Source: Myroides odoratus DSM 2801 (GTDB taxonomy: Bacteria; Bacteroidota; Bacteroidia; Flavobacteriales; Flavobacteriaceae). Taken from it: a stretch of 64,000 nt of DNA. Each line of letters begins with the position of its first letter. The stretch's first letter is position 1. Both the position numbers and the translations under genes were made by a program. This document shows positions 50,834 to 59,747 of the stretch, one piece after another. The notes beneath the pieces are model-generated. The model ran no database searches and was not told the origin of the DNA. It saw only the letters and a program-made list of their open reading frames with translations. The stretch covers positions 884,019-948,018 of the forward strand of contig NZ_CM001437.1 of assembly GCF_000243275.1 (NCBI RefSeq), in the 5' to 3' direction.

Positions 50834-50977
50834 ATGAGAAAATTAAAACCAGAAAATTTCCTAGAAATTGAAGAGCTTTCAGCCTTAGAAAACGAAACCT
50901 TAAAAGGAGGTACAGCTGAAGCAGATGTTAAGGTTGAAAAGAAAGTTGAAAAGAAAAAAATCGAAAAATCTATCTAA
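50834..50977 (+). CDS. Precursor peptide 1 with Gly-Gly leader and Lys/Glu core
   Basis: 47 codons. Residues 1-26 are a leader ending LKGG, with acidic amphipathic segment KPENFLEIEELSALENETL (5-23), the kind of Gly-Gly leader seen on Bacteroidota natural product precursors (TIGR04149-like). The core (27-47) has seven Lys and four Glu among 21 residues, no Cys, one Thr and one Ser. A second, near-identical leader follows 11 bases later. The encoded C39 exporter 2 kb downstream is the expected processing enzyme. Short length explains why it is easily missed. No start alternative is plausible. Confidence 0.85.
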   Translation: MRKLKPENFLEIEELSALENETLKGGTAEADVKVEKKVEKKKIEKSI

Positions 50978-50988
50978 ATCTAGTAATC

Positions 50989-51132
50989 ATGCAAAATTTT
51001 AAGCCCGAAAATTTCTTAGAAATTGAAGAATTGTCAGCATTAGAAAATGAGACCTTAAGAGGAGGAGCTTCAGAGAGTGTTGAAATTAAGAAAGAGAAGA
51101 AGAAAGAGAAGAAAATAGAATCTAATAAATAA
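50989..51132 (+). CDS. Precursor peptide 2 with Gly-Gly leader and Lys/Glu core
   Basis: 47 codons, a duplicate of peptide 1. Residues 5-23 of the leader are identical in both, followed by LRGG here instead of LKGG. The core (27-47) has eight Lys and five Glu, no Cys and three Ser, but shares little exact order with the core of peptide 1 beyond the K/E pattern. The leader conservation combined with core divergence is what is expected when the leader is recognised by common enzymes. The pair is separated by 11 bases, so they are co-transcribed. Confidence 0.85.
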   Translation: MQNFKPENFLEIEELSALENETLRGGASESVEIKKEKKKEKKIESNK

Positions 51133-51142
51133 TTAATTCTAA

Positions 51143-51176
51143 ATAAGGAGGTGTTTAAGTCAAAGCACCTCCTTAT
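51143..51176 (+). promoter_or_regulatory. Stem-loop between precursor and enzyme genes
   Basis: Perfect 11-base arms ATAAGGAGGTG (51143-51153) and CACCTCCTTAT (51166-51176) around a 12-base loop, 10 bases after the peptide 2 stop. There is only a weak T-run after it (TCCTTTT), so partial termination or RNA processing is more likely than full termination. The arms match the full Shine-Dalgarno sequence and the 3' tail of 16S rRNA. Confidence 0.75.
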
Positions 51177-51198
51177 AAATCCTTTTAAAATTATATAT

Positions 51199-52494
51199 AT
51201 GAAAACAAATAAATTTTCTAAAGATTGGTGGTATTCATTTGTGGACAGAAATCTCTCTTTTTCAGAGTGTCAAGTCTACAAAGAGGTGATTTCAGAAGAT
51301 ATTTTAATTTCACTGGATCATGGAGTGAGAGAGATGTTAAGATCTAGAATCAATGAATTTAATATTAGAGATGGATTTAGACTATATATTGATGAAAGAG
51401 AGTTAAGCGATTCTGAGATAAGAAAGTTAATTAAAGATAATAAGATAGATGATTCAGAAAGTATTGAAGCATATTGTAATCGGGTCTTTGGTAATAAATT
51501 TGGGATAATTACTAACTATTGCGAAAAACATTCTGAAATATTAGCTAATACTGTGCTAAAAACAATTAGCCCATTGTTTGAAATCGTGGGTATTCCGCCT
51601 TGGGGTATAGAATTAACAACTTTTATTGGAAATTATGGTTGGACACCTATAGGAATACATAAAGACAATCGTGGAGAAAATGTTTTACATTATCATTTGG
51701 GACCAGGTAAAAAAATAATGTATGTATGGGATGAGGACCTATATAACAAAGTAACTGGTGGGGTTTCTAATAATAAGGATGTAGAACCATTACTCAAATA
51801 TGCAAAAAAACATGAATTTGGAGTTGGGGATTTATACTATATGCCTTGGAATAAGTATCATATAGGGTATTCTGCAAATTTCTCAATTGGGGTAACTTTA
51901 TGGTTTAATAATCCGACTAGATATGATTTTTCTACGTTGATGGTTGAAACCATTAAGAATTTATGTTTGAAAAATGATCAGAGTATTATAGAAAGTCAAT
52001 TAGATTATAGTACTAATGAAAATACTTTTAATGATTTTATAAATACTCTTAATATTAAACAAGAAGTTTTAGAAAAGCCATTAATTGATTTTTTTAAGTC
52101 TATTTATAACGAATATAAAAAGTGTCTGATGAGTAACGGAGGTTGGCAAAATATACCTCTTAGTCTATATGCTAAAATTGATAGTGAAAAAGATTATTTT
52201 CCAAACTTAGAAAGTAAATCCCTTCTACCAAATGATTTATTTAATATCAAATTTGAGATTATAGAAAGTAGGTTGATTATTTATGTCCGAGGTTCAAAAC
52301 TAACTTTTAAGTATTTTCCAGAATTAGTATCAATCATTAATATTATTAATACTTCTGAGACAGAGATTGACATTAAATCTATTATTTGTAGATATGAAAC
52401 CTTACCTAAAGAAGTGATTTTATACTTTTTGAAGGTTTTGATTAATAATCGTGGAGTTAAAGTTAAAGATTTGAATTTAATGGAACTAAATTAA
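51199..52494 (+). CDS. Putative JmjC/cupin-type 2-oxoglutarate Fe(II) oxygenase for peptide modification
   Basis: 431 residues from the ATG at 51199; a GTG at 51151 lies inside the stem-loop and is unlikely. The middle shows a metal-site pattern like JmjC/cupin hydroxylases: GWTPIGIHKDNRGENVLHYHLG (HxD, His 154 and Asp 156) and DLYYMPWNKYHIGYS (His 221) with a following GVTLWFNNP strand. The N-terminal 120 residues are helical and charged; the C-terminal 130 contain beta-rich and helical parts that could be a winged-helix or peptide-recognition domain. No known family name can be given with confidence. Position just after the precursors, in a compact operon, supports a role in modifying them; lysine hydroxylation is inference. 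Confidence 0.75.
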   Translation: MKTNKFSKDWWYSFVDRNLSFSECQVYKEVISEDILISLDHGVREMLRSRINEFNIRDGFRLYIDERELSDSEIRKLIKDNKIDDSESIEAYCNRVFGNKFGIITNYCEKHSEILANTVLKTISPLFEIVGIPPWGIELTTFIGNYGWTPIGIHKDNRGENVLHYHLGPGKKIMYVWDEDLYNKVTGGVSNNKDVEPLLKYAKKHEFGVGDLYYMPWNKYHIGYSANFSIGVTLWFNNPTRYDFSTLMVETIKNLCLKNDQSIIESQLDYSTNENTFNDFINTLNIKQEVLEKPLIDFFKSIYNEYKKCLMSNGGWQNIPLSLYAKIDSEKDYFPNLESKSLLPNDLFNIKFEIIESRLIIYVRGSKLTFKYFPELVSIINIINTSETEIDIKSIICRYETLPKEVILYFLKVLINNRGVKVKDLNLMELN

Positions 52495-52496
52495 TT

Positions 52497-53000
52497 ATGG
52501 AGGGATATGAAATTGTTAAAGAAGGTGAGGGTACTTATATTTTTGTAACTGATAATAATATTGAATATCAATTAGAGACAAAACGCTCTGGAATTGTATA
52601 CGAAGACTTTCAAGGAGAATGCAAAGATATCATAGAATTAGCATTGAATTGTGATATAAATACAGCTTCTAAAGATTATAAAACGACATTGACATTAGCC
52701 AATTTTTTTGAGGGACTCGCCAGTTCTCATGACGCGATTTATTTGCAGATACATAATCAGCCAGAACACCTTTATGAGGATAAGGTTCAGAGAAGAGGAT
52801 TATCTCGACTAAAACTTTGGAATCGAGAGATTTCAAAATTTTTTAAAAATCATATAATGTTGAATAATTTAGTATTGAACCCAAATAAAAGCAGTGATAT
52901 TTTAAGTATTATAATAAAAAAAGATTCTATTTATTATAGCCAATTTGTAATAAAATTTTATAGATTCTGTTATTTTAAAATGTATAAAGATATTTCTTGA
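52497..53000 (+). CDS. Unknown protein in peptide operon
   Basis: 167 residues, starting 2 bases after the oxygenase-like gene. Opens YEIVKEGEGTYIFVTDNNIEYQLETK, beta-like, then turns helical and basic (RRGLSRLKLWNREISKFFKNH). It resembles small Bacteroidota proteins of the DUF6169 kind in its first 60 residues, but I am not certain. Two roles seem possible: a leader-binding adaptor or an immunity protein. It has no membrane segment or enzyme motif. Confidence 0.7.
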   Translation: MEGYEIVKEGEGTYIFVTDNNIEYQLETKRSGIVYEDFQGECKDIIELALNCDINTASKDYKTTLTLANFFEGLASSHDAIYLQIHNQPEHLYEDKVQRRGLSRLKLWNREISKFFKNHIMLNNLVLNPNKSSDILSIIIKKDSIYYSQFVIKFYRFCYFKMYKDIS

Positions 53001-53006
53001 TTGAAA

Positions 53007-55202
53007 ATGTTTAGAAAAAGAAAATATATTAAGCTAACTCGTCAACATGATTTAATGGACTGTGGGCCTGCTTCATTAAGTATGATAACTAGTTTTTATG
53101 GCAATAGATTTTCTCTATGTAACCTTAGAGAATTGTGCCAAATTGGCAAAGACGGAGTTTCAATGCTTGGAATCATTCACGCTGCACAAGAAATCGGGTT
53201 TGAAGCAAAAGCGGTCAAATTAAATCTAACTCAACTTGTTTATAATTTTACGTCTCCATGTATTCTTTATTGGAATAAAAATCATTTTTTAGTTTTAGAA
53301 TCAATTGCTATTGTAAATAATAATCGTTTTTTTAAAATTGCAGATCCAGCTCATGGAAAAGTAACTTTAGGAGAGAAAGAATTTATTGATGCTTGGTTGA
53401 AAAATGAAGAGAAGGGAATAGCCTTATTTCTTAATCCTACAGAACAGTTTTATTTATTAAAAGATCAAAATGATTTTAAGGAAAGAGTAAATGAAATATT
53501 AAAATTGTTTGTTCCCTATAAGAGAAAGATTTTTTTATTAATGTTTTTTGTTCTAGTAAGTAATATGTTGAGTATAGCTCTTCCTTTTTTAACCGAATCT
53601 TTGATAGATAATGGGGTAGAAAAAAAGGATCTAAACTTTATTACTTTAATTCTTTTAGCTCAACTATTTATTTTTTTAGGTATTATGGTAATAGATCTTT
53701 TAAGGAATTGGTATACACTTATAATCGGTGCAAATTTTAGTATTGATGTAATATACTCATACCTAGATAAGATTTTAAGGCTTCCTATTCGTTTTTTTGA
53801 CACTAAGAATTCAGGAGATTTTAATCAGAGGATACAGGATAATGTAAAAATTGAGGAATTCTTTACTTCGGATAGTATACTAACTATTTTTTCCTCTTTG
53901 ACTTTGATTATTTATTCAATTATCTTGCTTTATTATGACATCTTTCTGTTTATTATTTATTTGGGACTTACTGTCTTATCAATTCTATGGTCGTTTTTTT
54001 GGTTAAAAAAAAGAAGAACCTTGGACTATCAATTGTTTAGTGCAAAATCTGAAAATCAAGAAGCTGTGTACGAGTTTTATAATGGGATTATGGAAATGAA
54101 ACTCAATCAGTTTGAAGATTATAAGAAAAAGAAATGGATTTATTTACAAAAAAAAATATTAAAACTTAACATTAAGTCATTAAAAAACAATCAGTTTCAA
54201 TCAATCGGATTTACTTTCTTTAATCAACTTAAAAACATTTTGGTAACTTTTTTGGCAGCAAGTTATGTTATAAAGGATGTAATGACTTTAGGAGCTTTAT
54301 TAAGTGTTTCTTTTATTATAGGACAGATGAATACACCAGTTTATCAATTACTAAACTTTATTAAATCACAACAAGATGCATTTTTAAGTTTTAATAGATT
54401 AAATGAAGTATACTCACAAAAGGATGAAGAAAAAGATACAGATGTCAAACTTGATCTAGCACATGGACCGTTAGACATTCGAATGGAAAACGTTAGTTTT
54501 AAGTATAATATACTATCACATAAAAATGTTCTGAAAAAAGTCAATTTAATTATTCCTAAGGGAAAGATAACAGCAATCGTTGGACATAGTGGAAGCGGAA
54601 AAACAACATTAATGAAGTTATTATTGAATTTTTTCTTGCCATCTGAAGGAAAAATAGCGTTTGGAGAAGATGAAATAACGCAAATATCAGCCAAGAGCCT
54701 TAGAGAAAATTCTGGTATAGTGATGCAGGATGGTTATATATTCAACGATACCATAGAAAGAAATATAGCTATGAATGATGAAATAGTGGACAAACATAAA
54801 ATGAAAAATGTTCTTGAAGCTGTTAATTTATTTGAGTTTGTCAATTCACTTGCACTAAAAGAGTTTACTAAGATTGGCTCTGGAGGAAATGGACTATCTG
54901 GGGGGCAAATGCAAAGAATACTGATAGCAAGAGCATTATATAAAAATCCAAAATACATTTTTTTAGATGAAGCTACCTCTGCACTTGATTCTATAAATGA
55001 AAAAGAAATACATAATAATCTCAGGCAATTATTTGATAATAAAACGGTTGTAATAATTGCTCATCGATTAAGTACTGTTCAAAATGCAGATCAAATAATA
55101 GTACTTTCAAATGGTGAAGTCGTAGAACAGGGAAAACACAAAGAGTTGATAAATAAAAATAATTACTATTTTACATTAGTTAAAAATCAATTAGATATAT
55201 GA
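53007..55202 (+). CDS. C39 peptidase-containing ABC exporter
   Basis: 731 residues from the ATG at 53007 (TTG two codons earlier is possible). Numbering from that TTG: C39 peptidase with Cys 21 in QHDLMDCGPASLSM, His 95 in WNKNHFLVLE and Asp 115 in IADPAHGK; then six membrane helices (about 170-440) and an ABC ATPase with GHSGSGKTTLM, signature GLSGGQMQRILIARAL, Walker B KYIFLDEATSALD and the switch His in IAHRLSTVQNADQI. This is a PCAT-type transporter: it cuts leaders after Gly-Gly and exports the core. All catalytic residues are present. No HlyD-type adaptor gene follows. Confidence 0.96.
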   Translation: MFRKRKYIKLTRQHDLMDCGPASLSMITSFYGNRFSLCNLRELCQIGKDGVSMLGIIHAAQEIGFEAKAVKLNLTQLVYNFTSPCILYWNKNHFLVLESIAIVNNNRFFKIADPAHGKVTLGEKEFIDAWLKNEEKGIALFLNPTEQFYLLKDQNDFKERVNEILKLFVPYKRKIFLLMFFVLVSNMLSIALPFLTESLIDNGVEKKDLNFITLILLAQLFIFLGIMVIDLLRNWYTLIIGANFSIDVIYSYLDKILRLPIRFFDTKNSGDFNQRIQDNVKIEEFFTSDSILTIFSSLTLIIYSIILLYYDIFLFIIYLGLTVLSILWSFFWLKKRRTLDYQLFSAKSENQEAVYEFYNGIMEMKLNQFEDYKKKKWIYLQKKILKLNIKSLKNNQFQSIGFTFFNQLKNILVTFLAASYVIKDVMTLGALLSVSFIIGQMNTPVYQLLNFIKSQQDAFLSFNRLNEVYSQKDEEKDTDVKLDLAHGPLDIRMENVSFKYNILSHKNVLKKVNLIIPKGKITAIVGHSGSGKTTLMKLLLNFFLPSEGKIAFGEDEITQISAKSLRENSGIVMQDGYIFNDTIERNIAMNDEIVDKHKMKNVLEAVNLFEFVNSLALKEFTKIGSGGNGLSGGQMQRILIARALYKNPKYIFLDEATSALDSINEKEIHNNLRQLFDNKTVVIIAHRLSTVQNADQIIVLSNGEVVEQGKHKELINKNNYYFTLVKNQLDI

Positions 55203-55543
55203 GAGTAATAATGTCTTTTTTGTTAAAATTTGTTATAGTTGTTGGTGTCGTTTTTGCTACTATGTCTTTTACTGTAACATCAAAATACGAGAAAATAATT
55301 TATAAAAGTATAAATACAAGTGAGTATACTTTAATCTATCAAATACTTAAAAATAATATTGAAGATTTTCCTGAGAAAGAGAATAAGAGTATTAAGTATA
55401 AAGATTATAACACCAATTATTCATTTCAAATCGTATTAAAAAGCAATCATTTTAGATTGAAGTACTTGAGTAATAAAACGTGTAATGAGAAAGTAGATTC
55501 TATAATAGCAAAGATTGAAGAAGTGACAAATAATAGACAATGA
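55199..55543 (+). CDS. Small membrane-anchored protein of the peptide operon
   Basis: 114 residues. Its ATG overlaps the exporter stop (ATGA). An N-terminal hydrophobic segment (about 5-27, MSFLLKFVIVVGVVFATMSFTV) is followed by about 85 charged, mostly helical residues with two Lys-rich stretches. Could start 12 bases later. Not recognised. Position between the exporter and the outer membrane barrel suggests a periplasmic adaptor, chaperone or immunity role, none of which is shown. Confidence 0.7.
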   Translation: MRVIMSFLLKFVIVVGVVFATMSFTVTSKYEKIIYKSINTSEYTLIYQILKNNIEDFPEKENKSIKYKDYNTNYSFQIVLKSNHFRLKYLSNKTCNEKVDSIIAKIEEVTNNRQ

Positions 55544-57912
55544 TGAAGATAAGAATAATAATAGTTAGCCTTTTGTTATGTACAGGAATGGTGTATTCTC
55601 AAGGTACTATATCTGGAAAAGTACTTGACCAATTAAAAGCGCCTTTACCTTTCGTAAATGTTGTTCTGTATAATGCTGAGACAGACGAATTAGTTACAGG
55701 AACAATTAGTGATGATGCTGGGAATTTTTCATTCTCGAATATTAGTATAGGAAGCTATTTCCTCGACGTCTCGTTTATTGGTTTTAAAACTCAAAAATCA
55801 TCCCTATTCCGTATTTCTTATGAACATTCAAATGTAAATTTAGACTTTGTTTTGGAGGAAAATATTGAATTGTTGAATGAAGTAGTCATTACTAGTCGTC
55901 GACCAGTAATTCAGCAAACAGCTGAGAAATTAATCATTAATTTAGAACAATCGCAGATGATAAGCTCAAATTTACAAGATGTGCTTAAAAAGGTTCCTGG
56001 AATTATTGTTATTAATGGAAATGTTACTTATGGAGGACAGCAAGGAGTTAAAATTTTAATCAATGGAAAAACAACAGACTATATGGATATCGCATCCTTA
56101 TTACGCGACTTTCCAGCCGATAATATTGCTAAAGTAGAATTGATTCAGCAACCAGGAGCTGAATTCGATGCAGATGGTTCAGGTCCTTTAATTAATATTA
56201 TCCTTAAAAAAAATGTTAGCCTTGGAACTAATGGAAGTGTAAAATTTAACGTAGGATATGATAATAAACCAGAATATGGGCTAAGTAGTTCCATTGCTAG
56301 CTATAAAAACAAACTTAACTGGCAATTAGATGCTGGATACAAAAAATCGGCATGGAGAGAGGATTTATTTATTAAGAGAAATATAAATAACCAAATATAT
56401 GATCAGGCTACTATTGAACCCTATAGCCCAAAAACGATTAGATTTAACGGAGGAATAGATTATTATATTACGGAACAACACGTAATTGGTGTTGAAGCAA
56501 GATTAATTGACACAGAGTCTGATAGAATAGCTTCAAATAGTACCTACATTATTAAAGGAGATGTATCCGAAAATCTATTTACGGATAATAGCTTTGAACG
56601 TAATAGTAAAACTTTTAATCTGAATCCATATTATAAGTTTGAGGATGAAAAAAATCAATTGATTTTAGATTTTGATTATGTGAATTACAACAACGATAAT
56701 ATTAATACTATTTACAAAGTTGAAGAAAGTGATGTCTCATACAATGATCAACGCTATTTTCAAGATGGAAAATATAAGATAATAACGTATAAGGGGGATT
56801 ATAAGCGTTCTGTAAATGATGGTTTTAACTGGATGTTTGGAAGTAAATATTCTAAAGTTTCAACTGATAATGACTTAGAATCTTTTGTACATACTGCTAC
56901 TGGAGAATTTGGGTTAGATGCCAATCAAAGTAATCGTTTTTTAATAAGCGAAGACATAGTTGCATTATATTTTAAAGTGTTTAAAAAATGGAAAACTTGG
57001 TCTTTTTCAGGGGGATTACGTTGGGAACATAGCGATACGAAAGGGACATCTTCAAATCCATATGAAGTAAAAAATAGAGTTATCTCTAAGTTGTTTCCTA
57101 GTGTGAGCATTGACAGAAGTATTAATGAACAGTTTGGAATAAATTTATCCTATAGTTATCGAATTTTGAGACCTTCCTATAATTCTTTAAATTCTTTTGT
57201 ATTTTATTATGATCCCTATACTTTTGAAAAAGGGAATCCAAATTTAAAACCTGAATTCACAAATAGCTTCCAGTTCAACTTAACTTTTGAGCGTAAGCCT
57301 TTTTTCAGCATAGCTTACAATAATACAAATGATGCTTTGTTTGAATTAGTTTCACAGAATGATCTTACAGCCCAAACTTCAAGATCTATTATTAATCTTT
57401 CTAAACGAGAAAATTGGAATTTCAGAGTTTTTGCTCCTGTAAAATTTGGCAATAGATTAGATGGTTACAGTGGAATAATAGTAAATTATAATAAGTATAA
57501 ATCAAGTGTATTAAGTCCTAAACTAGATCTAGATAAATGGAGTTTAACATGGTATACCAACATAGAATATCAACTTCTTTGGGATATTCATTCAGAATTA
57601 ATAGGATATTATACAACAGGAGGCCTTCAAGGACAGATTGAGCACGATTGGTTGGCAGGATTAAGTTTTGCTTTGGGCAAAAAGTTTATGAATGATAAAT
57701 TCAAAGTAAATCTTGGAATTGAAGAAGTCTTAAATCGTAAATTTGAAGGACGAATTAGATATGATAATATTAATGCAGATATCCAAAGTGATTGGTCACG
57801 ACAAAATGTATATCTTCAATTGACCTATAATTTTGGTTCAAATTTTAATAAGAAGAAAGAAACAAGAAGTGCATCTGAAGAGGAACAAGAAAGAATTAAG
57901 GAAAATAATTAA
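55540..57912 (+). CDS. TonB-receptor-like outer membrane beta-barrel protein
   Basis: 790 residues. Signal peptide (MKIRIIIVSLLLCTGMVYSQ), a carboxypeptidase-regulatory-like domain (about 22-105: GTISGKVLDQLKAPLPFVNV), a plug domain (about 125-215: VPGIIVINGNVTYGGQQGVKILINGK, IELIQQPGAEFDADG) and a large barrel of the OMP_b-brl_3 type. Ends with LQLTYNFGSNFNKKKETRSASEEEQE. This family resembles SusC-like receptors but lacks a partner SusD. In this operon it may be a release channel, receptor or target/immunity protein for the peptide. Its ATG overlaps the previous stop. Confidence 0.88.
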   Translation: MMKIRIIIVSLLLCTGMVYSQGTISGKVLDQLKAPLPFVNVVLYNAETDELVTGTISDDAGNFSFSNISIGSYFLDVSFIGFKTQKSSLFRISYEHSNVNLDFVLEENIELLNEVVITSRRPVIQQTAEKLIINLEQSQMISSNLQDVLKKVPGIIVINGNVTYGGQQGVKILINGKTTDYMDIASLLRDFPADNIAKVELIQQPGAEFDADGSGPLINIILKKNVSLGTNGSVKFNVGYDNKPEYGLSSSIASYKNKLNWQLDAGYKKSAWREDLFIKRNINNQIYDQATIEPYSPKTIRFNGGIDYYITEQHVIGVEARLIDTESDRIASNSTYIIKGDVSENLFTDNSFERNSKTFNLNPYYKFEDEKNQLILDFDYVNYNNDNINTIYKVEESDVSYNDQRYFQDGKYKIITYKGDYKRSVNDGFNWMFGSKYSKVSTDNDLESFVHTATGEFGLDANQSNRFLISEDIVALYFKVFKKWKTWSFSGGLRWEHSDTKGTSSNPYEVKNRVISKLFPSVSIDRSINEQFGINLSYSYRILRPSYNSLNSFVFYYDPYTFEKGNPNLKPEFTNSFQFNLTFERKPFFSIAYNNTNDALFELVSQNDLTAQTSRSIINLSKRENWNFRVFAPVKFGNRLDGYSGIIVNYNKYKSSVLSPKLDLDKWSLTWYTNIEYQLLWDIHSELIGYYTTGGLQGQIEHDWLAGLSFALGKKFMNDKFKVNLGIEEVLNRKFEGRIRYDNINADIQSDWSRQNVYLQLTYNFGSNFNKKKETRSASEEEQERIKENN

Positions 57913-58047: not shown

Positions 58048-58479
58048 ATGAATAACTCTTTTTATATCTTAGATTATATTCCACATTGTTATCCTTATCG
58101 TTTTATTGATTCTATTAGCGAGATAAGTAAATCACATGTTATAGGAAAATGTTTTTTATCAAGTGAATCATTTTTCTATAAAGGGCATTTTCCTCAGAGC
58201 CCCATTACACCTGGTTACATAATCACAGAAATAATGGCACAAATAGGTGTATTGGCATTAGGCATCTATTTAAATAAAGAAAACATACAGAAAATAAATG
58301 CTGCATTCCTAACAAGTACAAATGTCAAATTTTTTAATATCAGCTATCCCAATGATACAATAACAGTAAAATCAAAACTTATTTACTACAAACTAAATAC
58401 AATTAAATGCAAAATAGAAGCCTACAATCAACATGAATTACTGTTATGTAAAGGTGTACTGACAGGAAAAATCAAGTAA
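58048..58479 (+). CDS. FabZ-like 3-hydroxyacyl dehydratase
   Basis: 143 residues with the hot-dog fold motif YKGHFPQSPITPGYIITEIMAQIG; catalytic His 47 and Glu 61 are 14 apart exactly as in FabZ. The N-terminal IPHCYPYRFIDSI and the AAFLTSTNVKFFN segment also fit. A housekeeping FabZ is usually next to lpxC/lpxA in Bacteroidota, so this separate copy is likely specialised, for example for aryl-polyene (flexirubin-type) or another polyketide-like acyl chain. Followed 7 bases on by a membrane protein gene. Confidence 0.8.
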   Translation: MNNSFYILDYIPHCYPYRFIDSISEISKSHVIGKCFLSSESFFYKGHFPQSPITPGYIITEIMAQIGVLALGIYLNKENIQKINAAFLTSTNVKFFNISYPNDTITVKSKLIYYKLNTIKCKIEAYNQHELLLCKGVLTGKIK

Positions 58480-58485
58480 GTATAA

Positions 58486-58899
58486 ATGAAAAATAAAAAT
58501 AAAAATAAAGTTGACCTCTATCCTGCTTTATGGGTAATCGTTTGGGATGTTGCTATAACTGCTATATACCAACCGAAAGAATATTGGCAAGGTAATTTAC
58601 GAATGGTTAATGAGGGAAATCCGATAGGGTATATTTGTATGACTACTAATCAATATGGCCTTTTCTATCTAGCCTTCATATGGCTTGTTGCTGTAGTACT
58701 CTTTGCTAAAATACTCCCCTACTCTCTTAGTAAAACCTTTTTATTATTTGTTTTTATCTCCCATAATATCGGGATAGTTAATTGGATGCTATTCAAAAAT
58801 CATTTCGTATTCGCAATTCTATTTATATTACTAAATTCTTTATTCTTTGATAGAAAAGAAATTTGTTCAAATAGCAAAACAACTTTATTTAAAAATTAA
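58486..58899 (+). CDS. Unknown small membrane protein
   Basis: 137 residues with a Lys/Asn-rich N-terminus and four hydrophobic segments (about 11-28, 57-75, 83-102, 104-120). Not recognised. Co-transcribed with the FabZ-like gene by position. It may be a lipid- or pigment-related membrane protein, but no motif is present. Confidence 0.6.
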   Translation: MKNKNKNKVDLYPALWVIVWDVAITAIYQPKEYWQGNLRMVNEGNPIGYICMTTNQYGLFYLAFIWLVAVVLFAKILPYSLSKTFLLFVFISHNIGIVNWMLFKNHFVFAILFILLNSLFFDRKEICSNSKTTLFKN

Positions 58900-59008: not shown

Positions 59009-59638
59009 TTAAATTATCTTACATACTCTCAGCACAGCTAACAATTCTTGATAGTCTTTGACATTAAATGCTACCATCATTTTAGATACCCTTTTTTGAA
59101 TTGCGCTCCTACTCAACAAAATTTCATCACTTAACTGATAAATCCGATAACCCTGTGACAACAACGCAATGATGCGCCTATTTTTTGAATCGAGTAATGT
59201 GTTATTTTTAATTATTGTTTGAATTGCTCCTTCTGCCAAAGGACTTAAATAAGGCAAGGTATATTTATTGGATTCCACCAGATCTAATAACAACTCTTTC
59301 GTAAAGTCTGATTGAACAATTAAAGCATCTGTCTCTATTGTTTTATACATTGTATACAACGCAAGTGCTTTTTCACTTTCTGACAGCAAGATAATCTTAC
59401 AATAGGGAATATTTCTTTTGATTACTAAAACACAATCAGAAACTGATACTAGCTTATTTTCAGAAACTCCAACAAGGTCATATGTAATAATGGCTAGGTC
59501 GAGATCTAATATTGTTTCAAAAAGAGTAAAAAAATCTTCACAATTTGTTGTATTTAAAAAAGTATGCTTCTTCTTTCCAAGAATAGAAATATATCCTTCC
59601 ACTACCATAAGATTACTTTCAACGATCAATATTTTCAT
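59009..59638 (-). CDS. Response regulator with degenerate receiver and LuxR-type DNA-binding domain
   Basis: About 209 residues from the ATG at 59638 (MKILIVESNLMVVEGYISIL); a longer frame reaches 59689. The receiver-like domain (about 1-125) keeps one Asp in DLAIITYDLVGV but lacks the usual acidic pair at the start (VES in place of DD) and the conserved Lys near the end (IVQSD). The C-terminus (about 145-205) is a LuxR-type helix-turn-helix: NRRIIALLSQGYRIYQLSDEILLSRSAIQKRVSKMM. Probably a regulator that does not use ordinary phosphorylation. Possible target: the neighbouring AT-rich genes. Confidence 0.75.
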   Translation of the reverse strand: MKILIVESNLMVVEGYISILGKKKHTFLNTTNCEDFFTLFETILDLDLAIITYDLVGVSENKLVSVSDCVLVIKRNIPYCKIILLSESEKALALYTMYKTIETDALIVQSDFTKELLLDLVESNKYTLPYLSPLAEGAIQTIIKNNTLLDSKNRRIIALLSQGYRIYQLSDEILLSRSAIQKRVSKMMVAFNVKDYQELLAVLRVCKII

Positions 59639-59747
59639 TTTTATGTTCAAAATAGAATAAAAAATAAACAAGAAACAACTATTTAACAATTTTAATAAAT
59701 AAATATTCGAAAAACAAATATTTTACGGTATTAAGAAAAATAAAAAA

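Follow-up and report, generated by a model that had tools for sequence, protein, structure and literature searches.

A candidate RiPP-type operon with Gly-Gly leader peptides, a ROX-type JmjC oxygenase and a C39 exporter in Myroides odoratus DSM 2801

Results

A 64-kb stretch of Myroides odoratus DSM 2801 (contig NZ_CM001437.1, positions 884,019 to 948,018; hereafter the window) carries a compact set of genes for two short peptides, a JmjC-type oxygenase, an exporter with a C39 peptidase domain and an outer-membrane barrel, and its reading as an operon for peptide maturation and export is well supported. All coordinates are positions within the window. Nine tightly spaced plus-strand open reading frames (ORFs) run from 50834 on; the first seven, all of them present where the original prediction had placed them, form the operon described here. 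ROX denotes ribosomal oxygenase, RRE the recognition element of ribosomally synthesised and post-translationally modified peptides (RiPPs), and PCAT a peptidase-containing ATP-binding cassette (ABC) transporter.

50834..50977, plus strand: precursor A (47 aa), with the leader at 50834-50911, ending in Gly-Gly, and the 21-residue core at 50912-50974
50989..51132, plus strand: precursor B (47 aa), with the leader at 50989-51066, ending in Gly-Gly, and the 21-residue core at 51067-51129
51143..51176, plus strand: stem-loop with a 14-bp stem in the gap that separates precursor B from the oxygenase gene (folding energy against shuffles)
51199..52494, plus strand: ROX-type JmjC oxygenase, 431 aa; triad H154 (51658), D156 (51664), H221 (51859); invariant K172
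52219..52470, plus strand: beta3-alpha3 domain at the C-terminus of the oxygenase, residues about 341-424; resembles an RRE and the ROX winged helix
52497..53000, plus strand: 167-aa protein, weak GNAT-like fold
53001..55202, plus strand: C39 peptidase-ABC exporter of PCAT type; start TTG 53001 or ATG 53007
55199..55543, plus strand: small protein (114 aa), hydrophobic at its N-terminus; relatives limited to L004-L006, the three nearest loci
55540..57912, plus strand: outer-membrane barrel; Pfam CarboxypepD_reg-like, weak Plug, OMP_b-brl_3

The distances between the seven genes are, in order, 11, 66, 2, 0, -4 and -4 bases; if translation of the exporter begins at ATG 53007, in frame and six bases past the ORF start, the gap upstream of that gene becomes 6. 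The oxygenase measures 431 aa from ATG 51199. A longer ORF opens at GTG 51151, which is an unlikely start because it falls inside the hairpin. The genes had been described as visibly AT-rich, and they have 24-31% GC compared with 34.5% for the window. Each precursor consists of a 26-residue leader ending in Gly-Gly and a 21-residue core, as had been proposed, and both share the leader type FLxxxxLSxLExxxLxGG. They match the leader profile at E 4e-11 (precursor A) and 2e-12 (precursor B), both being among the sequences that built it. The two cores are free of Cys, as claimed, while the statement that they hold almost only Lys and Glu was too strong, these residues making up 52% and 62% of them.

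A search with the oxygenase gave 141 relatives at E <= 0.001, and 120 were listed, headed by the protein of the window itself. Where names were given, the listed relatives were called 'hypothetical', 'JmjC domain-containing' or 'cupin domain-containing'; one of them (P0113) is filed under an Enterobacter hormaechei assembly. A genome scan yielded 47 loci (L004-L050), chiefly from Bacteroidota, including Aquimarina, Chryseobacterium, Flavobacterium, Tenacibaculum, Zobellia, Kordia, Chitinophaga, Niastella and Pedobacter, with Chromobacterium, Paucibacter and Massilia as carriers outside that phylum. The enzyme is rare in whole-genome samples: counting the window genome each time, it was found in 3 of 60 relatives, 3 of 395 genomes of the class (one of these three being a weak partial match) and 11 of 395 genomes of the order.

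The expectation that oxygenase homologues sit beside short Gly-Gly leader genes was borne out, a leader-profile match adjoining the enzyme in 39/47 loci; three distant relatives outside this set (L058-L060) have no such neighbour. An exporter relative is found in 43/47 loci and carries the C39 motif in 41 of those 43; of the other two ORFs, that of L025 sits at the edge of the fetched sequence and is likely truncated, and that of L043 encodes an ABC protein lacking C39. Leader and exporter occur together in 38/47 loci. With three C39 domains in the 4.3 Mb of this genome, a randomly chosen site would have one within 9 kb in about 1.3% of cases, so the association, seen for leaders in 39/47 and for C39 exporters in 41/47 loci, is far above chance. 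No further protein family occurs in more than 9/50 loci. Eleven further regions were fetched, four of which (L051, L053, L057, L061) duplicate named loci, leaving seven; enzyme, C39 exporter and leader are combined in four of these (L052, L054, L055, L056).

The reciprocal test used a profile of 29 leaders (E <= 0.01) on the same 395 genomes of the order, with an enzyme cut-off of E <= 0.001. The profile matched 10/395 genomes, nine of them among the 11 enzyme-bearing ones (Fisher p = 9e-16, ignoring kinship among genomes); the two genomes with enzyme only carry the distant L058 and L059. Because several of the nine genomes' species fed the profile, the strength of this test is the near absence of leaders elsewhere. 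The arrangement typical of RiPPs, a modifying enzyme beside its precursor, is thus seen in 39/47 loci and in 9/10 leader-bearing genomes, the modification itself being presumed.

The oxygenase alignment has 38 rows, 37 of them chosen from the 120 listed proteins in addition to that of the window. H154, D156 and H221 are invariant in 38/38 rows and form the HxD...H iron triad; K172, also among the invariant residues, may be the basic residue for the 2-oxoglutarate carboxylate, a role known from ROX structures. The structure model of the oxygenase shows the JmjC/cupin fold that had been predicted, with a JmjC double-stranded beta-helix in the ROX domain order, and its closest folds are YcfD and NO66/MINA53. 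The likeness to these ROX proteins (PF08007, JmjC_2) extends over nearly the whole length, including the C-terminal winged-helix/RRE-like domain, and both carry the HxD...H triad, whereas identity is about 9-15% and the window gene adjoins Gly-Gly leader peptides and a C39 exporter. Within the full-length model the C-terminal elements follow in the order E351-355, E358-363, E366-371, H374-385, H392-398 and H404-416, the ranges serving for order only. The domain is probably the part that would bind the leader. A sequence search of PDB with the enzyme gave no match and a profile search of PDB gave chance-level matches only; NCBIfam release 20.0 gave scattered single-member matches for the 38 enzyme rows and a single chance-level match for 10 further precursors.

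Hydroxylation is the default chemistry of the JmjC fold, and lysine may be the target in the window. It is unlikely that the JmjC protein instead oxidises the repetitive core in another way, by cross-linking or macrocyclisation, desaturation or backbone oxidation. Fe/2-oxoglutarate enzymes are capable of more than hydroxylation, cores with a regular i,i+2 pattern, for example KVKVKVK, would lend themselves to serial linking of side chains, and a 2025 paper among the references of PMC12710340 concerns, by its title, macrocyclisation in RiPPs catalysed by a 2-oxoglutarate dioxygenase; yet the closest folds, YcfD and NO66/MINA53, are hydroxylases of Arg and His (stated in part of PMC9994133), and the RiPP JmjC enzymes treated in parts of the literature hydroxylate ornithine.

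Core statistics were taken from 60 distinct precursors (leader-profile E < 1e-5, plus four from further regions), which show the common leader and divergent cores characteristic of RiPPs. The median core length is 21 and the main residues are V, K, Q, E, A, T and D; W is absent, and Y (0.1%), F (1.1%) and C (0.8%) are rare. Core types comprise VEVKKEKKKEK (window branch), KVKVKVKIK, KEKEKEKEKEK, VVRQVRQVVQVV, VVTTVVKVVTV, runs of up to 17 Gln, HHHDHD, HVHVH and a single TKCKCKCKCKEE. This last core, with alternating Cys and Lys, belongs to a precursor (L005:8647-8799) in one operon with sisters that have Lys/Glu cores. Lysine as the target throughout the family was rejected, given the polyglutamine cores without lysine and the His-rich cores. 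Slippage or an assembly artefact was likewise rejected for polyglutamine by the mixture of CAA and CAG codons in tracts of 7 to 17 Gln in 6/6 loci inspected, although the tract of L031 contains a masked stretch.

The stem-loop that follows precursor B has a folding energy of -20.4 kcal/mol (z -6.1; 0/200 shuffles as stable). The 80 bases past the last precursor reach z < -2 in 33/38 other loci (median -4.2), compared with 2/31 control stretches before the exporter gene (median 0.0), and the stems of different loci differ in sequence. The hairpin is likely a partial terminator or processing site that would keep precursor mRNA in excess over that of the enzyme, and its position is where such a terminator would be looked for.

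The exporter contains the Pfam domains Peptidase_C39, ABC_membrane and ABC_tran in one chain, as in a PCAT, and its translation contains the motif QHDLMDCGPASLSM; the best 25 of its 192 NCBIfam matches were considered. Among the nine window proteins scanned no HlyD-type adaptor was recognised. Two clusters of neighbourhood proteins (8 and 18) look HlyD-like by eye. The barrel belongs to a family common in Bacteroidota, and a relative occurs in 27/47 loci, all three of leader, exporter and barrel being present in 27/47, counts to which no chance rate is attached.

The barrel bears on whether the product might be a metal-binding peptide, with hydroxy-His or hydroxy-Asp ligands, that is re-imported through it. 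We regard this as highly improbable. His/Asp-rich cores do occur in Chitinophaga, Chromobacterium and Paucibacter, and the barrel resembles TonB receptors, but polyglutamine, KEKE and Val/Thr cores offer no evident metal ligands, and the Chromobacterium and Paucibacter loci with His cores (L030, L035, L039, L040, L042) hold no relative of the window barrel in the fetched stretch.

The precursors and the 431-aa, 167-aa and 114-aa proteins had no above-cut-off match in Pfam or NCBIfam. The 167-aa protein is confined to the window branch (L001, the window, and L004-L006), with a distant copy in L018; assignment to a known family was rejected, there being just a weak GNAT-like fold and one DUF6169 match. 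GNAT lysine acylation occurs in RiPPs (selidamides). For the window branch the protein could be a divergent GNAT that N-acylates core lysines to give an acylated Lys-rich peptide, with the JmjC protein as second tailoring enzyme, which we think quite unlikely. In its favour, GNAT-type acyltransferases are among nearly all structural matches listed for its model (predicted local distance difference test score 88.5), the gene occurs in Lys-core loci and in L018, whose core also has Lys, and nostolysamides contain acylated lysines (part of PMC13060382).

The AT-rich stretch extends to about 60.0 kb, and the segment 49999-59798 (9.8 kb) has 25-30% GC against about 35% in its surroundings. The operon occupies a variable spot, because a relative of the same genus (G020, L066) with identical flanking genes in the same order on both sides holds other genes between them, namely ORFs of 806 and 418 aa without match to window ORFs in place of the 9.8-kb segment; this fits the patchy spread. 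A simple pattern scan found no Bacteroidota-type promoter motif upstream of the operon. The last two of the nine ORFs lie in 58048-58899 on the same strand, 135 bases past the barrel gene:

58048-58479, plus strand: FabZ-like gene, 143 aa (Pfam match)
58486-58899, plus strand: gene of a 137-aa protein

They were rejected as members of the system, having no relative in the fetched stretches of other loci or in the 11 further regions. A 226-aa ORF at 59009-59689 (minus strand), also in the AT-rich segment, resembles on visual inspection a response regulator whose helix-turn-helix is of LuxR type, and might control the operon.

Discussion

The unit of precursor, modifying enzyme and C39 exporter proposed in the original prediction is well supported, and the barrel is tied to it less tightly. 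From gene association, common leader, fold, conserved triad, C39 exporter and hairpin, all of which were computed, we infer leader binding, hydroxylation, cleavage, an export route and roles for barrel and hairpin, and we consider it probable that the whole acts as a RiPP-type operon in the following manner. The common leader of the two precursors would be bound by the JmjC protein, probably through its C-terminal RRE-like domain, and this Fe(II)/2-oxoglutarate oxygenase of the YcfD/NO66/MINA53 fold would oxidise, most likely hydroxylate, side chains of the low-complexity core. The C39 domain of the exporter would then cleave past Gly-Gly and its ABC part export the core, with the barrel as a putative outer-membrane exit or receptor. 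The hairpin past the precursors may tune the dose, keeping peptide in excess of enzyme.

A wider reading, which we advance tentatively and with rather more doubt than trust, is that of an undescribed RiPP family in Bacteroidota and some Betaproteobacteria, in which a leader-guided ROX-type JmjC enzyme repeatedly hydroxylates homopolymer or dipeptide-repeat cores (polyglutamine, KEKE, VKVK, HxH, CKCK), with enzyme branches tuned to residue classes and poly-hydroxylated peptides as secreted products. Forty first JmjC copies, from loci with a classed precursor, were labelled with three core classes (polyglutamine, His-rich, other), set by majority within the locus. On the enzyme tree, a quick tree with some long branches, these labels require 2 changes compared with at least 9 in 1000 label shuffles (mean 12.9), which ignore kinship. 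The link between core and enzyme would extend beyond common descent because single genera hold different core classes: Aquimarina aggregata has KVKV in L021 and polyglutamine in L045; Chryseobacterium has polyglutamine in L028 and Val/Lys in its remaining loci; and Chitinophaga has Lys/Glu in L025 and His in L032 and L038. Two or three JmjC copies per locus were observed in L011, L023, L024, L025, L030, L032, L035, L037-L040, L042, L047 and L049, and within the His branch the tree separates first from second copies into two subtrees that run in parallel, as if two enzymes acted in turn.

These patterns also bear on a rival explanation, that the peptides are plain, unmodified Gly-Gly peptides of class II microcin or pheromone type and that the JmjC protein has some other target, for example a ribosomal protein or an immunity factor. 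C39 exporters also secrete unmodified peptides, and the target of YcfD is a ribosomal protein (part of PMC9994133). We nevertheless judge it very unlikely, since enzyme and leader family co-occur, core class tracks the enzyme tree, JmjC genes stand side by side in twos or threes at several loci, and distant JmjC relatives are found outside such loci.

Several results weigh against the RiPP-type operon proposed here. With finer labels (Lys, Val, Gln, His) the tree requires 6 changes, a count that stands without a shuffle comparison, and the Lys and Val classes were merged into 'other' after that result. L030 combines a Q-rich core with an enzyme of the His branch, and the shuffle count over all rows labelled its row H. 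Operons moving as units can produce the same core-enzyme pattern without any tuning of the enzyme. The window enzyme matched no Pfam or NCBIfam JmjC model, PF08007 included; PF08007 is weak in 21/38 enzyme rows (best E 3e-4), and no PqqD/RRE model is among the Pfam matches of the 38 rows at E up to 0.1. Fold, triad and association make oxidation of the core by the JmjC protein likely. The hairpin is absent (z above -2) from L004, L005, L025, L035 and L040, the first two of which are near relatives of the window.

To the same side belong the 8/47 loci without leader. The contig ends just upstream of the enzyme in L015 and L046, the enzyme gene is in pieces in L044, and L034, L043, L047, L048 and L049 lie on deep or long tree branches, where L034 and L048 carry short Gly-Gly-type ORFs with another leader type and L049 one with a leader match at E 0.5. 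Neither leader nor C39 lies near the distant enzyme relatives of L058, L059 and L060 (3/7 further regions), whose JmjC proteins (about 400 aa) are possibly a non-RiPP sister group. Genome G724 (L062) has a leader-like match with no enzyme or exporter relative in the 12 kb fetched; it was treated as spurious or stray and rejected as a member of the system. Apart from this, at L034:10363-16129 a JmjC relative lies beside other Gly-Gly-type peptides, together with a C39 exporter and a pair of proteins that match nothing in Pfam at E 1e-5, perhaps a different peptide pathway using the same enzyme type.

The absence of the usual RiPP classes, as originally noted, holds for the nine window proteins, whose Pfam and NCBIfam matches include no lanthionine, radical S-adenosylmethionine (SAM), YcaO or ATP-grasp enzyme, the neighbours in other loci not having been scanned as a whole. 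Lanthipeptides, class II microcins and graspetides likewise combine a double-glycine leader with a C39-ABC exporter; the present system differs in having no lanthionine, ATP-grasp, radical SAM or YcaO enzyme among the window matches and in the low Cys content of its cores (0.8% over 60 precursors). JmjC hydroxylases in RiPP pathways are established, as parts of the literature on biphenomycin-type peptides state (BipG, BpmG, PbsQ), and the likeness is that of a JmjC-type hydroxylase within such a pathway. There, in the same parts, ornithine is tailored alongside a multinuclear non-haem iron-dependent oxidative enzyme (MNIO), an arginase and a B12 radical SAM enzyme, and the leader is removed by a TldD-type protease, whereas no MNIO, arginase or B12 radical SAM enzyme is among the Pfam/NCBIfam matches of the nine window proteins.

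Whether such a system was already described had been left open. A brief passage of PMC12710340 (mSystems 2025) reports fusions of an RRE with a PF08007 JmjC domain in fish and algal proteins, with bacterial relatives (about 30% identity) in RiPP-like contexts; the likeness is a similar beta3-alpha3 domain on a PF08007-type JmjC protein, and the section on these fusions describes no precursor family, core types or operon, and so not the present system. The main texts on Bacteroidales RiPPs (PMC10352776), graspetides (PMC8939145) and Pedobacter (PMC12181424) make no mention of JmjC or cupin, and no description of a peptide-JmjC-C39 family was found among the literature matches listed, which largely leave subscription papers uncovered. 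The survey of peptide-modifying dioxygenases by Iyer et al. in 2010 may have touched on such operons. The peptide family is without a name in the Pfam and NCBIfam releases searched.

Conclusions

If the RiPP-type operon works as proposed, a fold known for marking ribosomal proteins would also build secreted peptides, and its substrates would be among the simplest repeats in biology, polyglutamine included. Should the undescribed family exist as outlined, the winged helix of YcfD, NO66 and MINA53 and the leader-binding domain of RiPPs would be one kind of module. The natural sets of precursor and enzyme, with different core residues on one scaffold, would make the rules of residue choice by JmjC enzymes testable by swapping pairs, and the leader profile together with the ROX-type JmjC protein would provide a handle for genome mining of this peptide family.

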